From Flagellimonas meridianipacifica (lineage in GTDB: Bacteria > Bacteroidota > Bacteroidia > Flavobacteriales > Flavobacteriaceae): a DNA stretch of 64,000 bases. Of this stretch, positions 58,872 to 64,000 are shown one piece after another. Position numbers and translations under genes: made by a program. Where the stretch lies: assembly GCF_003001695.1 (NCBI RefSeq), contig NZ_PVYX01000002.1, positions 310,001 to 374,000 of the forward strand, given 5' to 3'. The stretch's first letter is position 1; each line of letters opens with the position of its first letter. The notes under the pieces were generated by a model. That model made no database searches. It had not been told where the DNA came from and saw nothing but the letters and a program-made list of their open reading frames with translations.

Positions 58872-59870
58872 CTATTTCGCATAATCTCCTTGGGCGTAAG
58901 TAGCCAAGATACCACTGTTTGGAGATTTACAGTTGTTGGGAAAATCAAAAAAGTAAATACACTTGGGCAAGCCATTTTCAAAGGTAATCCTAACCGAACC
59001 AGGGCTGCTGCCACTAAAGCCTTTATACCGGTAGTTTGCACTTAATTCGTTGGGTACTCCATTGGAATTTGTATACTTTTTCACATTCGAAACACTTCCA
59101 GATATATACCGATTAAAAGCCCATGTTTTTGCCTGGTCTGCTACTAAATCATCGATTAACTTATTAAAATTTTGCTCACCGGAAGGACCGCCAGATTTTT
59201 TCATCTTTTCATATTTGCTTGGTTCTTTCATCCTAATGGAAGGTTTGTCCAAGGCGTACAATCGAAGATTTTTCTCGAAACGACGTATTGCCTGACCATT
59301 ACATGAATTGAGATTAAAAATCTGTGCCATGTCATTTTTTAGTCCTTTGGCCTTATGTATCATGTCAACGGAATTTCCCATAGCGTTTGGGTCACTGACC
59401 ATGTTAATTACCGTTCGAAAGGCCTCAGCGTTTTGAAGACGTTCAACGGCCAGTTTTGCATTATAGAGTTCGGGTCGGGCGTAAAGTCCCGTGCCAACTG
59501 TTTTCCATTGTACACAGACTCTACTGGTCTCAATTCCATAACCGTTTGTAGTGACCTCTTCCATTGCGCACACATCTTCCATTATTTCGACTTTGTCATC
59601 TGGTAATACATCTGGACATTGGCCGCCAAAAGCTCTGAGGTACTGCTCAAAAATCATAGAGAACTGCAAGTCTTCCCTTGTCATTTCAACGTTTTCAAAA
59701 TGGCCCCTAAAGATATAATCAAAGAATTCAGCATAGTATAACCCTTCTGTCTTTAATTCCAAGGATTGTGAAACGGAATGTGAGAGAGCTGGAACTTCAA
59801 CAGAATCTGAAAGAAAAGAGGTCATGACCATCCAAGCTAGGCATCCCAAAAGAGTACTTTTTATTCTCAT
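58872..59870 (-). CDS. Hypothetical exported protein (last gene of the paralog operon)
   Basis: 332 residues, signal peptide about 1-27 (LLGCLAWMVMTSFLS). The mature chain is cysteine-bearing (CPDVLPDD, VCAMEE, SRVCVQWK, LNSCNG, PKCIYFFDFPNNCK) and contains AKTWAFNRYISGSV and LSANYRYKGFSGSSPGSVRI near the end. I do not recognise it. It does not share the blocks of the four paralogs upstream, but only five bases separate it from the first of them, so it is part of the same message and probably of the same function. Confidence 0.7.
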   Translation of the reverse strand: MRIKSTLLGCLAWMVMTSFLSDSVEVPALSHSVSQSLELKTEGLYYAEFFDYIFRGHFENVEMTREDLQFSMIFEQYLRAFGGQCPDVLPDDKVEIMEDVCAMEEVTTNGYGIETSRVCVQWKTVGTGLYARPELYNAKLAVERLQNAEAFRTVINMVSDPNAMGNSVDMIHKAKGLKNDMAQIFNLNSCNGQAIRRFEKNLRLYALDKPSIRMKEPSKYEKMKKSGGPSGEQNFNKLIDDLVADQAKTWAFNRYISGSVSNVKKYTNSNGVPNELSANYRYKGFSGSSPGSVRITFENGLPKCIYFFDFPNNCKSPNSGILATYAQGDYAK

Positions 59871-59875
59871 AGCGT

Positions 59876-61102
59876 TTAATTTTCCTTGTAAACCAATTGC
59901 CGCATGTCTAAGCTCCCCAGTTTTTGGGTCAGCTGAATGTCCTCAAAAATTTCAACGATGGGGTCTTGAAAATGGTAGCTGTAAGTAGGTGTAAAGCTAA
60001 ATCTGTTCGCCTCTTCAAGTCCCTCAAAAACAATTTTGACCTTTGACACTATTTGAAGGTCTTTGTACCTGTCATTTATTAGCTTTTCAGCTTTATCTGG
60101 TTCAATCTTAAATAAGACTTTCCCCTTGATGTACTCAACTTGATTAGTTTTGCTGAGCACTTGCTGCCCATAATCAGTCTTGGGCAGAAAAGTAAAAAAG
60201 TAGCTCTCTCTAGTACTATTGTAATCAAAGCCGCGACCATTTCGGATTTTGTGCGGCAATGATATCCAAAAACCGTTTCGTTCAAAATCATAAGTCCCCA
60301 AATCCTTCAGCTGCCAAACTAAATAAACCGTTTGCGTTCCATCGGAAAAAAAGGATTTACTCCACTCCAAAATCGGGTCAAGATGTTTGTCCACAAAATC
60401 TACGTATTTCTCATTTTCGGTGAAGTCGTCGGCTCGGAAGCCTCCCCAAGTGTTGACAACACGACAATTTCCTGAGTTTTCTTCCGGGTTACAAAAATAC
60501 TGCTGTTGTAGGCTTTCGCTACCAACGGCAAAAACAAAATTTGCCAGCATTTGCTGCGCCTTGTGTGATTTAATCTCTTCCTCATTCAAGGTTTTGGGTC
60601 TTGGCGTCAAGGCCTCTTTATCTATTGATTTAAAGAGGTCGTTTAAAAGGTTTATCTGCACCAGTTGCATAAAGCCGGTGTAGCCTGCTTCCATAAGTTT
60701 TCGTTTGGCCTTACCTTCGGGTGAGCCATCAGGTCGGTTAGGTGACTTGAAATAAAAATCACAGGAACCAAACCTAGGTATTCCCTTGTAGTGCTGTACC
60801 GATATATCTCTAAACAGGGGGTTTGGCGAGTCGTAGGTCAATATTCCAGGGTCCTGTACCGTAATTGGCCCTTCTCCTTTACTTGAACTTTGAGTGCTAT
60901 CTTTTGGTTCGGACTTTGTATTTTCTTTCTGTTCATTTTTTTTGTCATCACCAAGAACCTTACCTGCAACCTCTTCGGTTTTTTGGAGGAGTTCTGCCTC
61001 GGTCTTTTTTTTCAGTTTTTTTAGGAATTGCGCATGGGAATTCTCTGTGGTGGCCAAAAAGCAAATACCCAAAACAAAGATTATATAATTTCTTTTCCTC
61101 AT
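59876..61102 (-). CDS. Tandem exported paralog A
   Basis: 408 residues. Signal peptide (ends NSHA-Q), then a basic amphipathic helix FLKKLKKKTEAELLQ and a charged linker to about 85. Family blocks: ILTYDSPNPLF (87-97), KGIPRFG (106-112), a middle Cys pair (YFCNPEENSGNC), GGFRADDFTENEKYVDFVDK, LGTYDFERNGFW and a C-terminal FEDIQLTQKLGSLDM strand. Paralogs B, C and D show the same order. The central part (DDF, then YDF-x3-GFW) reminds me somewhat of DUF4852, but that must be tested by an HMM. Function unknown. Translationally close to B (4-base gap) and to the gene after it (5-base gap). Confidence 0.8.
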   Translation of the reverse strand: MRKRNYIIFVLGICFLATTENSHAQFLKKLKKKTEAELLQKTEEVAGKVLGDDKKNEQKENTKSEPKDSTQSSSKGEGPITVQDPGILTYDSPNPLFRDISVQHYKGIPRFGSCDFYFKSPNRPDGSPEGKAKRKLMEAGYTGFMQLVQINLLNDLFKSIDKEALTPRPKTLNEEEIKSHKAQQMLANFVFAVGSESLQQQYFCNPEENSGNCRVVNTWGGFRADDFTENEKYVDFVDKHLDPILEWSKSFFSDGTQTVYLVWQLKDLGTYDFERNGFWISLPHKIRNGRGFDYNSTRESYFFTFLPKTDYGQQVLSKTNQVEYIKGKVLFKIEPDKAEKLINDRYKDLQIVSKVKIVFEGLEEANRFSFTPTYSYHFQDPIVEIFEDIQLTQKLGSLDMRQLVYKEN

Positions 61103-61106
61103 AATT

Positions 61107-62315
61107 TTAATATTTGGATTGGATGTTTTCTATGTTTATCTCACCAAGCTTCTCAGTCAAGGCCGGATTTTTACTGTAGATTTCTATAGTCTGGTCAACC
61201 AGTTCAAACTCAAGTTGAACCTGCGTATGGTTCACTACTTTTGGAAATACTTTCACCTTGAATACGCAGTTCACGGGTACTCTTTCTTGAAGGTTGAATT
61301 CCTTGGCTTTTTGAGGGTCTATGGAAAAAAAGAACTGCTGGCGGCTGTTTTTGATTTTCTTTTCATTTTCTGAATACGCCAAAAAGTTTGACGAATGCAG
61401 CATAAAACTACCACCTCCCATAAGGCCCGCTAGCCAATAACCCTTGTTCTTGAAATCATATTTACCCTGTATTCCACTTCCACATACATAGTAGACTATT
61501 TGTTCATCATTTTCATAAAAGGTATCGGCCCATGACTGCAAAGCCTGTAAGTGATTCTCAAGAAATCCTTTATAGCTTCTTTGTTGTTGAAACTCATTGC
61601 CTCGGCTTCCTCCCCAATATGAAGGTGGTCTCCTATCTCCATATCGGTCAACAAATTCGCAAGGGATTTTTCTTTTGACTTTATTTTTATTCTGCAGATT
61701 GGAAGAATTATCGCTTTCATCACAAAAGTATTTCTTGAGCACTTCTTCCGAACAGGTGTAGCCTGCAAGGTTCTTCAAATGGCTCTGTGCAAAATAGGAG
61801 TTCTCTTGTTTCTGGTCCCCTGAACTTTTTTCCTGATAGGAGGTTAATTTTGAACGATTGATATCTGCGTATGTTTTTTTTAAATACTTTAACTCAACCA
61901 GCGCTTTATATCCATTTTTATTGACAGGTGTTGTTACTCCTCTCCTGTAATGAATATCGCCATACCTTGGCAACCCTTTGTGGGATTGTATGACAATGTC
62001 AATAAAATCTGAAGATGGGGCTTTATACGTGATGATATTGGTTTCATTAATCGTGTTAACTCCACCTTTTGTTGTATTGGAAACCGTTTTGTTCTCCTGT
62101 GGCACTTTTTTTACTTGACCTACCTTATTTTCCTGTTCAGGCGTTGTTGGTTTTTTGTCATCCAGAAGTACGTTTATTTCCTTATCCACTTTTTTTTCAA
62201 CTTTATCCTCCAAATTTTGTTTTAGCTTTTTCAGAAATTGCCCTTGTATGTTTTGGGTCATTCCTAACAAAAGGAAGGTCACCAGTACTTTCATAGTAAA
62301 TGCTCTATTTATCAT
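61107..62315 (-). CDS. Tandem exported paralog B
   Basis: 402 residues, starting at 62315; a second ATG seven codons in (62294) also gives a good signal peptide. After cleavage near NIQG-Q the chain again begins FLKKLKQNLEDKVEKK, like A. Blocks: IITYKAPSSDF (94-104), KGLPRYG (113-119), KKYFCDESDNS, GGSRGNEFQQQRSYKGFLEN, GKYDFKNKGYW and SKNPALTEKLGEINI. It carries an insertion with extra basic residues (QNKNKVKRKIPCEF) between the Cys region and the NEF block. Only 1 base lies between the stop of C and its start, so coupling is tight. Confidence 0.8.
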   Translation of the reverse strand: MINRAFTMKVLVTFLLLGMTQNIQGQFLKKLKQNLEDKVEKKVDKEINVLLDDKKPTTPEQENKVGQVKKVPQENKTVSNTTKGGVNTINETNIITYKAPSSDFIDIVIQSHKGLPRYGDIHYRRGVTTPVNKNGYKALVELKYLKKTYADINRSKLTSYQEKSSGDQKQENSYFAQSHLKNLAGYTCSEEVLKKYFCDESDNSSNLQNKNKVKRKIPCEFVDRYGDRRPPSYWGGSRGNEFQQQRSYKGFLENHLQALQSWADTFYENDEQIVYYVCGSGIQGKYDFKNKGYWLAGLMGGGSFMLHSSNFLAYSENEKKIKNSRQQFFFSIDPQKAKEFNLQERVPVNCVFKVKVFPKVVNHTQVQLEFELVDQTIEIYSKNPALTEKLGEINIENIQSKY

Positions 62316-62316
62316 T

Positions 62317-63360
62317 TTATCTAGTCTTTATGGTTGCAGAACCTAAGTCAAGCTCTCCAACCTTATTTGTTAGGCCATCATCAACATATAGTGAAATAGT
62401 TGGGCTGACCAGTGTAAAAAGCGTTTTTAAACGATTCATTCTATAGTTTTCAATCCCATTTAAGGCAACGTTTACCTCAAACACCAGATATAGATTATCG
62501 TACTTCTCAGAAAACGCTTCCGCTTTTTCCGGAGAGAGCTCGAGAAGTAGTTGAGAGCCATTGGGGTGTTTCAATTTTCGCTCTGATGTGGTTTTGGGCT
62601 GAAGGTTATACCATCGCAATAGAAAACCTTGATTGTGAAATTGATTGGTGTCCAACCAATACCCCCCGCTTTTAAAATCATAAGTGCCTAAGCGGGTTTT
62701 ACCGACATAATATCCATCGATTTTGTTTTCTGGGTACAACGAATTGCCCCATTGCTGCATTTTTGGAAAAAACTCATTGGCAACCGTTTTAAAAGCCCGC
62801 AATTGTTGAAACTCGGTAGCTCCTTTTCCACCCCAAGGAGCAATATCAGTATAGGGTCTGTAGTACCCATCATCTTTGAATTGGGCTGCGCAATCCTGCT
62901 GTTTTTCATTGCAGAACAAACGGCACTGTTCTTCTGTGGAAAGCAAAGTATTGGCAAGCACGAGCAATTGTTCTTGTGCGGTAAGGGATTTCAGCTCTTT
63001 GTCATACATATCATTTTTTCGAACCGTGAACAACTCTTTGTCCATAGCATCAAAAATTTCTTGCTGATGCCTGATTTTTAAAAGCTGTCTGAACGCATAT
63101 TGACTCAGCACGTTGTGACTGGATTTTTTGTCAATTTCTGGATAGTTACCATCGTTGTGCTTTACATAACTGCCGTCTGGGTTCGTATAATAATTGTCTT
63201 GTTCTCCAAATCGCAACTTGCCATTATAGGTTTGTAATTCTAGGGCAATAAACGATATGCTCGGGGGTTCATAGGTAATGGTCGTTACATTGTTTGACGT
63301 ATTCTGACCGTTCATAACCCCTAGAAATAATAAAAACAATACTGGTGCAATCTTGGTCAT
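62317..63360 (-). CDS. Tandem exported paralog C
   Basis: 347 residues. Short signal peptide (ends VMNGQ) and then directly the family domain; the basic coiled linker of A and B is missing. Blocks: TITYEPPSISF (27-37), NGKLRFG (46-52), RLFCNEKQQDC, GGKGATEFQQLRAFKTVANE, LGTYDFKSGGYW, PEKAEAFSEKYDNLYLVFEV and SLYVDDGLTNKVGELDL at the end. So this is probably the minimal form of the domain. Gap of 2 bases to D and 1 to B. Confidence 0.8.
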   Translation of the reverse strand: MTKIAPVLFLLFLGVMNGQNTSNNVTTITYEPPSISFIALELQTYNGKLRFGEQDNYYTNPDGSYVKHNDGNYPEIDKKSSHNVLSQYAFRQLLKIRHQQEIFDAMDKELFTVRKNDMYDKELKSLTAQEQLLVLANTLLSTEEQCRLFCNEKQQDCAAQFKDDGYYRPYTDIAPWGGKGATEFQQLRAFKTVANEFFPKMQQWGNSLYPENKIDGYYVGKTRLGTYDFKSGGYWLDTNQFHNQGFLLRWYNLQPKTTSERKLKHPNGSQLLLELSPEKAEAFSEKYDNLYLVFEVNVALNGIENYRMNRLKTLFTLVSPTISLYVDDGLTNKVGELDLGSATIKTR

Positions 63361-63362
63361 GG

Positions 63363-64000
63363 CTAGTTGGTTTTGAGGATTAGGTTTTTCAAAGAAAGTT
63401 TGGTGACCAGCTTTGTCAATGCTGCGTCTTCGTATACTGCGAATTCAGGACTTTCGTGCGAATAGTTGAACTCTACAGGCTTTTGGGCATTTGTTAGCTC
63501 CTTCTTTACGTATTTTAATCTTATTTTTTTCACCAAGTAGAGTCTGCTAATACTCGACATCTGATACTTTTCTGCCTCTTTTTCATCCAATTCCAGTAGG
63601 AATTGCAAGCCCAACCCTCTGCCCAATTTGTTTTTTAGAGTATGCTCATAAGGTGTTTGTGGTTTAAAAATCACCTTTTTGATTCCTCCTCTAAAGATAT
63701 TGTTCAGGCCGAAGTTATGACTCACCCAATATCCTCTTTGGTCAAAATCATAATTACGTCCAATACCAATTTGAGAAACGTGGTAAGCGACGATTTCGTC
63801 GTTCTCAAAAAAAGTAGTACTCCATTGTCTCAATGGTGCAAGACAACTTTCTACAAACGCTTTGTAATTTCTGAGTCGTTCAAATTCATTCTTTCCCTGT
63901 CCTACATTTTTGCAATCCTCGGTAGCGCAGATGCTCGTGCCTACTTCATTTCTCAAAAAACTCTGCAGAAAGGCGGAGTTCCTTTGAGTTTCTGTTTTAT
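63363..64000 (-). CDS. Tandem exported paralog D (partial, start outside the window)
   Basis: 212 complete codons are visible, open to the window edge, so the start lies to the right. The beginning ETQRNSAFLQSFLRNEVGTS and ICATEDCKNVGQGKNEFE correspond to the Cys region and NEF block; RNYDFDQRGYWVSHN, LDEKEAEKYQMSSISRLYLV and AVYEDAALTKLVTKLSL match the other paralogs. The N-terminal TY-P and KG-RFG blocks would be beyond the edge. At least one more gene could precede it in the operon. Confidence 0.75.
   Translation of the reverse strand, partial: KTETQRNSAFLQSFLRNEVGTSICATEDCKNVGQGKNEFERLRNYKAFVESCLAPLRQWSTTFFENDEIVAYHVSQIGIGRNYDFDQRGYWVSHNFGLNNIFRGGIKKVIFKPQTPYEHTLKNKLGRGLGLQFLLELDEKEAEKYQMSSISRLYLVKKIRLKYVKKELTNAQKPVEFNYSHESPEFAVYEDAALTKLVTKLSLKNLILKTN

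Follow-up and report, generated by a model that had tools for sequence, protein, structure and literature searches.

Four diverged and probably exported paralogs form a laterally exchanged array beside a LytTR-type two-component pair in Flavobacteriaceae

Introduction

At the right edge of a 64,000-nucleotide stretch of the Flagellimonas meridianipacifica genome (assembly GCF_003001695.1, contig NZ_PVYX01000002.1, positions 310,001 to 374,000), four minus-strand genes that we call D, C, B and A follow one another almost without gaps, D being cut by the edge and A being followed by a further gene, E. What do the four genes encode together, and what controls them? A first-pass annotation of this stretch, hereafter the window (C2:310001-374000 within the 4.38-Mb genome G000), had read them as at least four tandem, anciently duplicated exported proteins of an unrecognised family, perhaps subunits of one envelope complex. 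We find that the array numbers exactly four members in this genome, neither fewer nor more, that each member has orthologs in the same order across several genera, and that the array adjoins a LytS/LytTR-type kinase–regulator pair. The explanation that we favor, tentatively, casts the array as the output operon of a dedicated two-component system, encoding one envelope assembly of four subunits, usually together with a lipoprotein.

Results

All six pairings of A–D are related (BLASTP E values from 2e-24 to 8e-36 against the six-sequence set), with 25–27% identity over 332–435 columns and Smith–Waterman scores 35–52 standard deviations above those of 200 shuffles. E and the lipoprotein encoded upstream of D score within the shuffled range against A–D (z −1.0 to 3.0) and are unrelated to them. 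Likeness this far above chance makes A–D, as judged by sequence, true paralogs. The shared blocks picked out by eye in the first-pass annotation reappear as invariant alignment columns, namely Y90, P93, F97, Q103, G107, R110 and G112, followed by Y271, D272 and F273, G277, W279, L391 and T392, and the spacing of 1–4 bases proposed to mark one message measures 4 (A–B), 1 (B–C) and 2 (C–D) bases, with 5 bases between A and E.

A collection in which each of 84,980 species is represented by one genome yielded 32 loci (L042–L073) on scanning; their labels are Flagellimonas, Allomuricauda/Muricauda, Maribacter, unnamed Flavobacteriaceae or Bacteroidia and, once, Algicola. The array occurs in 24 of 71 genus genomes, in 7 of 397 family-sample genomes including that of the window, and in 3 of 296 genomes of a phylum sample, one of these being a weak 72-residue match that was not counted; none was found in 23 genomes from other families of the order. 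Eleven further genus genomes match the array queries only through a leader helix described below. No array in these prevalence scans has fewer than three members, and contig ends cut the arrays of G014 and G029. Uncut arrays have four members, or three (L066, L071 and L073; deeper loci L151 and L152). The Algicola label (Gammaproteobacteria) belongs to a metagenome-assembled genome (L058) whose rpoB is ~99% identical to those of Flagellimonas relatives, and it is probably wrong.

In a tree of 117 members, made by a quick method and carrying a long-branch warning, each position of the type I loci forms its own clade, with Shimodaira–Hasegawa-like approximate likelihood ratio test (SH-aLRT) support of 99 for D (25 rows), 99 for C (26), 92 for B (26) and 99 for A (27). 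Type II loci keep the order: members 2, 3 and 4 of L065 and all three members of L066 and L071 group with C, B and A, and the clades so enlarged (29, 29 and 30 rows) are supported at 99 each. The first member of L065 and all three of L073 are unplaced. We saw no change of order among type I or type II loci, and spacing is tight in 23 of 23 type I cassettes (D–C −4 to 4, C–B 4 to 11 and B–A 3 to 5 bases). These four co-linear ortholog clades strongly support the earlier suggestion that the duplication is old and that the copies were kept apart.

In the window genome, the order lipoprotein–D–C–B–A–E runs divergently from a kinase and a regulator, whose Pfam matches are His_kinase (E 5e-23), Response_reg (1e-17) and LytTR (2e-17), with HATPase_c at 19.7 bits, under its cut-off. 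A Response_reg–LytTR regulator thus adjoins a LytS-type kinase, the arrangement of a LytTR two-component system. The kinase cluster is present at 30 of the 32 loci, the regulator at 28 and the lipoprotein at 26; among these loci, L048 and L051 are truncated, and L067 consists of a single contig of 3 kb. The lipobox Cys occurs in 18 of 18 lipoproteins and is followed directly by DD in 16, a motif that resembles a surface-export signal such as the SDDFE of Flavobacterium johnsoniae (PMC5080379, in the part available).

The region between kinase and lipoprotein contains what are probably the sites of this regulator. Among type I regions of at least 100 bases (20 of 24 extracts, the other four being shorter), 20 of 20 have an ACG and a second ACG 21 bases on, only the ACG core being scored; other spacings from 15 to 29 occur in 0–3 of the 20. 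The 21-base period appears in a mean of 0.52 and a maximum of 4 of 20 regions after shuffling, a comparison that overstates independence because the regions are related, some being nearly identical. Three phased boxes are present in 14 of the 20, and those of the window genome lie 99, 78 and 57 bases before the lipoprotein start, in an intergenic region that aligns poorly with the others outside the boxes. The repeat is also found at L069 and L149. LytTR sites are described, in the parts of PMC4847170 and PMC6193735 available, as two direct or inverse repeats of 9–11 nucleotides with an 11–13-nucleotide spacer and without common consensus; direct repeats of that geometry are present in all 20 regions and are predicted sites. 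Domains and repeats alike match LytS/LytTR-type systems with a TPR sensor (His_kinase PF06580, LytTR PF04397), from which the present locus differs in that its cargo is an undescribed exported family and in having three phased boxes, rather than two, in 14 of 20 regions. Of the steps in the explanation that we favor, regulation by the adjacent pair is the one best supported by these sequence features.

Kinase and array are also inherited together. At one chromosomal site, bounded by a TIM-barrel gene on one side and DUF922–OsmC–LysM–guaA on the other (DUF922 and guaA by Pfam, the rest by eye), an array cassette is found at L065 and L066 and other cargo at seven loci with both flanks and at two with the guaA side only. 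The kinases of seven array cassettes form one clade (bootstrap 92, SH-aLRT 99) against 13 kinases with other cargo, even at the common site, where the array-cassette kinases (L065 and L066) are ~35–38% identical to those of other cargo. The persistence of this clade at a common site indicates that kinase and array move together.

The lipoprotein also occurs apart from the array. Its homologs occur in 22 of 397 family genomes, 17 of them at E <1e-20, and two of these (G000 and G597) carry the array. The 15 other neighborhoods contain no array member: in eleven, a kinase gene and a regulator gene adjoin each other close to the lipoprotein, L201 has the kinase only, L187 and L190 have a labelled kinase or regulator further away, and L200 has a Ser/Thr kinase and a PP2C gene in place of the TPR/LytTR pair, beside the lipoprotein and a small protein, c22. 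Such loci in Flavobacteriaceae (for example, L189 and L194) thus resemble the array locus in that a homologous lipoprotein adjoins a TPR kinase and LytTR regulator related to those of the array. They differ in their cargo, which comprises two lipoproteins, one with a sub-threshold DUF6252 match and the other small and cysteine-containing, and a probable outer-membrane barrel (the small lipoprotein and the barrel by eye); their kinases are ~35–40% identical to array-cassette kinases. Gene E, which the first-pass annotation had tied to the array, adjoins it in the window and in G705 only (76% identical), that is, in 2 of 47 locus records, some of which duplicate one genome, and we rejected it as a constant partner. 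It is, like the lipoprotein, a module that also occurs with other partners: elsewhere it follows a Ser/Thr kinase and a PP2C-like gene (L153 and L155; PP2C by eye) or an M14 peptidase gene (L156).

Several loci illustrate this mixing. At L154:4272-9687 (G000:C2 ~1102271-1107686), a LytTR regulator and TPR kinase are divergent from a lipoprotein and a 681-residue exported protein, the C-terminal half of which is a gene-E domain (50% identical); the intergenic region has ACG repeats at 21- and 22-base spacing, making this a parallel module with different cargo. L153 and L155 (gene E) and L200 (c22 and lipoprotein) have exported modules common to two kinds of signalling pair. The c22 protein (L065, L066, L147; L200:10290-10793) is small and exported, has a charged helical part and recurs beside the lipoprotein in other genera.

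The cassette, in turn, crosses genera by lateral exchange. The first gene after A belongs to 20 different clusters over 29 loci, close relatives having common surroundings, and a cluster including tyrosine recombinases lies within two genes of A at five loci. Between the isolates Muricauda F6463D (L068) and Maribacter arenosus (L045), rpoB is close to saturation, with a synonymous divergence (dS) of 2.62, and has 93.7% protein identity, the lipoprotein-to-A genes have dS of 0.18–0.44 with paralogs 88–94% identical, and the regulator has dS of 1.21, above that of the operon, so exchange was strongest at the operon. For the isolates L059 and L060, rpoB is 99.4% identical and the cassettes 66.7%. 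Cassette and rpoB identity over 253 pairs have a rank correlation of 0.40, some of the compared genomes (L042, L055 and L058) being metagenome-assembled, with possible binning errors. The G+C content of A–C (39.4%) is not atypical for the window (39.6%); in other genomes, the array stays at 39–44% while its flanks range from 32 to 46%, which fits a lateral origin. A transfer RNA gene as insertion site was rejected, with four such genes and no pattern over 43 scanned loci, and no clean empty site was found when the L056 flank was followed in 71 genus genomes and eight regions were fetched. The ratio of nonsynonymous to synonymous divergence (dN/dS) is 0–0.32 for all seven genes, from regulator to A, in 11 close pairs (once 0.43, at dS 0.01), with kinase and regulator missing for one pair and three distant pairs saturated; all seven genes are thus kept functional under purifying selection.

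Several features place the paralogs, by prediction, outside the cytoplasm. The N-termini of all four groups read as signal peptides, with an invariant Gln near the expected cleavage point at D20, C19 and B26 (n = 24 each) and A25 (n = 25), and none of 97 sequences has a lipobox. An invariant Gln after a signal peptide without a lipobox agrees with the Q-rule that applies to substrates of signal peptidase I in Bacteroidetes (PMC5837995 and PMC10653852, in the parts available). Conserved Cys pairs occur at residues 139 (92%) and 144 of D, 150 and 157 of C, and 198 and 219 of B (24 sequences each), and no Cys reaches 90% conservation in A (25 sequences). The cysteine region described earlier for all four copies is therefore present, with a position that differs by paralog and with no Cys at 90% conservation in A; such differing placement in D, C and B fits an oxidising compartment. 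The basic helix attributed to A and B and not to C also held, with Q-F-x-K-K-L-K invariant in 25 A and 24 B sequences, and D likewise lacks it. The same signal peptide and leader, as AQFFKKLKKK, open OmpA-like and other exported proteins of the genus (OmpA label by eye), the cores of which are unrelated to A and B. Judged from these N-termini, the leader is a module shared among otherwise unrelated exported proteins.

The family itself stays unrecognised, as first described: Pfam gave only sub-threshold matches for the array proteins, as did NCBIfam for A–D of the window genome, and no PDB sequence match exceeded the cut-off. The best PDB candidate, 6gdu (E 0.035 with a four-row profile), disappeared with a 59-row profile. 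DUF4852 (PF16144), proposed in the first-pass annotation as a lead, is not supported. None of 59 members exceeds the gathering score of 22.8 bits, and the one weak likeness, at E 0.0078, compares with 0.46 such matches expected by chance; the best score in the genome of the window (12.2 bits) falls at another gene, ten divergent members have no match at E up to 3, and two DUF4852-carrying proteins, as single sequences, align to the family profile with probabilities of only 0.7% and 12%.

An AlphaFold2 model of C from the 59-row alignment (predicted local distance difference test, pLDDT, 89.2; predicted template modelling score 0.86) begins with strands, is helical in the middle and ends in a sheet. 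Foldseek found no PDB entry with E <0.001 for this model (best 0.078), absence from a Foldseek-ranked list being no proof of a new fold; the best VIA-align match has a Z of 4.0 over 71 residues, with a root-mean-square deviation of 3.8, and comparison with viral models gave no significant fold match. By homology, the fold of this single-chain model of C should extend to A, B and D. The lipoprotein model has a pLDDT of 61, and its fold search says little. No description of the array emerged from the titles and abstract openings of the open-access literature searched. The family is undescribed in everything that we searched, and so, perhaps, is its fold.

Discussion

From features legible in the sequences (paralogy, ortholog order, conserved Cys and Gln residues, repeats, kinase–array co-inheritance, purifying selection and lateral exchange), we infer a scheme for the cue, repeat binding, export route, disulfides, anchor, physical assembly and purpose of the system. 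First, a periplasmic TPR-domain sensor kinase would detect an envelope or extracellular cue and phosphorylate the LytTR regulator, which would bind the 21-base-phased direct repeats and switch on lipoprotein–D–C–B–A. Second, the paralogs would exit by Sec and signal peptidase I with an N-terminal Gln exposed, and D, C and B would each form one disulfide. Finally, the four non-interchangeable subunits would assemble with the lipoprotein, where present, as membrane anchor, the leader helices of A and B holding the assembly at the envelope. The whole unit travels between species as one cassette. Fixed order, tight spacing, the presence of at least three members together, Cys pairs in three of the paralogs and Q-rule-like signals are all consistent with one envelope complex.

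A number of observations weigh against this scheme. The lipoprotein is missing at L069, L071 and L149 despite the presence of kinase and array, and thus cannot be an obligatory anchor; at L065 and L066 the unrelated c22 stands in its place, and L069, L071 and L073 have neither. Repeats of the ACG form were not found at L065, L066, L071 or L150, and no labelled kinase lies beside the distant arrays L151 and L152. The three-gene arrays L066 and L071 have C-, B- and A-type members only, D being absent. Single paralogs have been replaced alone, a kind of change that tightly co-evolved interfaces would resist. In Maribacter thermophilus (L044), C is 73–75% identical to those of five relatives, to whose A proteins its own is 87–97% identical, and A of L058 groups apart from its D–C–B. 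Export, moreover, is read from the N-termini by eye, and a crude signal-peptide pattern that matched 24 of 24 D and 19 of 24 C sequences caught few of B (10 of 24) and A (9 of 25).

The chief rival, which we consider unlikely, holds that the paralogs are secreted weapons or shields against other cells or phages (antagonists, receptor decoys or adsorption blockers), switched by the LytTR regulator, with conflict driving both exchange and fast divergence. Cassettes are indeed swapped between genera and replaced among close relatives, as at L059 and L060; the matches listed for 53 scanned flank genes include at least three Phage_integrase, at least two Fic, at least one HipA_C and at least one Mrr_cat; and LytTR-family regulators control bacteriocin genes in Streptococcus mutans (PMC6193735, same part). 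However, no immunity-like gene was seen, and dN/dS is far under 1 for every gene in close pairs. Matches to defence and phage families are weak and scattered: in PADLOC, the best are RT_UG27 in 3 of 59 members (E 5.8e-4) and PDC-S06 in 1 of 59 (7.7e-4), with no system assigned, and in PHROGs no paralog matches below E 0.0059 (best 5.9e-3, in 1 of 59 members). Nor did the family profile find a relative in viral contigs, or one C protein a relative in plasmid and phage records.

A still less probable alternative makes the paralogs input rather than output, as periplasmic co-sensors of different ligands that signal to the kinase through its TPR domain, with four copies widening the ligand range. 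Co-inheritance of kinase and array would suit such a role, as would the divergent array of L040, which adjoins a TPR kinase of a different type (weak HisKA_3 and HATPase_c matches) and a Response_reg protein. The array nevertheless lies downstream of the probable binding sites of the regulator, as output genes do, and the helical leaders of A and B together with the lipoprotein suggest a structural role. Least probable is an ordinary tandem family, in which redundant exported proteins would be retained for dosage and form no common complex, since, common as tandem duplication is and although three-member arrays exist (L066, L071, L073, L151 and L152), every position keeps its own clade, D, C and B keep their own Cys patterns across genera, no array of fewer than three members was found and type I and II loci show no change of order.

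More broadly, the preferred reading, an output operon encoding an envelope assembly, describes a kind of locus that is already known in outline: a two-component-controlled, exchanged set of exported proteins. That it is also a new, laterally exchanged and sensor-switched envelope machine, with four paralogous subunits of a new fold at one position each, usually a surface lipoprotein and its own TPR kinase and LytTR regulator, and that it belongs to a larger repertoire of exported modules that can replace one another (lipoprotein, c22, E and other cargo) and mix with TPR/LytTR or Ser/Thr kinase–PP2C pairs, is a doubtful extension. What began as an unnamed array of hypothetical proteins can now be described as a defined unit of seven genes, for which we have a regulator, a probable operator, a confident structural model with no significant match in the PDB and a clear lateral history; its function is now testable in marine strains of Maribacter and Flagellimonas that are in culture. 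Should the subunits assemble, they would constitute a new envelope complex; should they act on neighbours or phages, they would be an undescribed conflict system.

Coordinates and further observations

Table 1 Features of the array locus in F. meridianipacifica (window positions unless a contig position, C2, is given)
Feature	Position	Strand	Description and basis
Paralog A, 408 aa, fourth array gene	59876..61102	-	Signal peptide, basic leader helix and family core; ORF, paralogy, own ortholog clade
Leader helix of A, residues ~25-52, QFLKKLKKK..., end set by eye	60947..61030	-	Q25 F26 K28 K29 L30 K31 invariant; leader also on unrelated proteins
Paralog B, 402 aa, third array gene	61107..62315	-	Signal peptide, basic leader helix and core with Cys 198/219
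Leader helix of B, residues ~26-54, end set by eye	62154..62240	-	Q26 F27 K29 K30 L31 K32 invariant
Paralog C, 347 aa, second array gene	62317..63360	-	Signal peptide and core with Cys 150/157; AlphaFold2 model
Paralog D, first array gene	63363..64000 (edge)	-	Complete gene 326 aa, G000:C2:373363-374343 (L002:15364-16344)
Lipoprotein gene, 184 aa, 14 bases upstream of D	C2:374358-374912, beyond window	-	Heads the operon
TPR and LytS-type His_kinase protein, 597 aa	C2:375087-376880, beyond window	Divergent from array	Pfam domains
Response_reg-LytTR regulator, 249 aa	C2:376888-377637, beyond window	Divergent from array	Pfam domains
Gene E, 332 aa, exported protein of unrelated family	58872..59870	-	Optional fifth operon gene; without similarity to A-D

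Flagellimonas pelagia has the cassette on four contigs (L048, L051, L063 and L064), two of which measure 7,274 bases and share 99.86% identity. The stretch common to L048 and L051 is the same in both except for approximately its last 320 bases, within A. As judged from the contigs, these near-identical copies could reflect recent duplication, gene conversion or assembly collapse, and could partly be a product of assembly. Beyond the window and upstream of the regulator (L003:5559-9400) lie genes for a RadC-like JAB protein and for probable mobilisation and probable coupling proteins, all labelled by eye.

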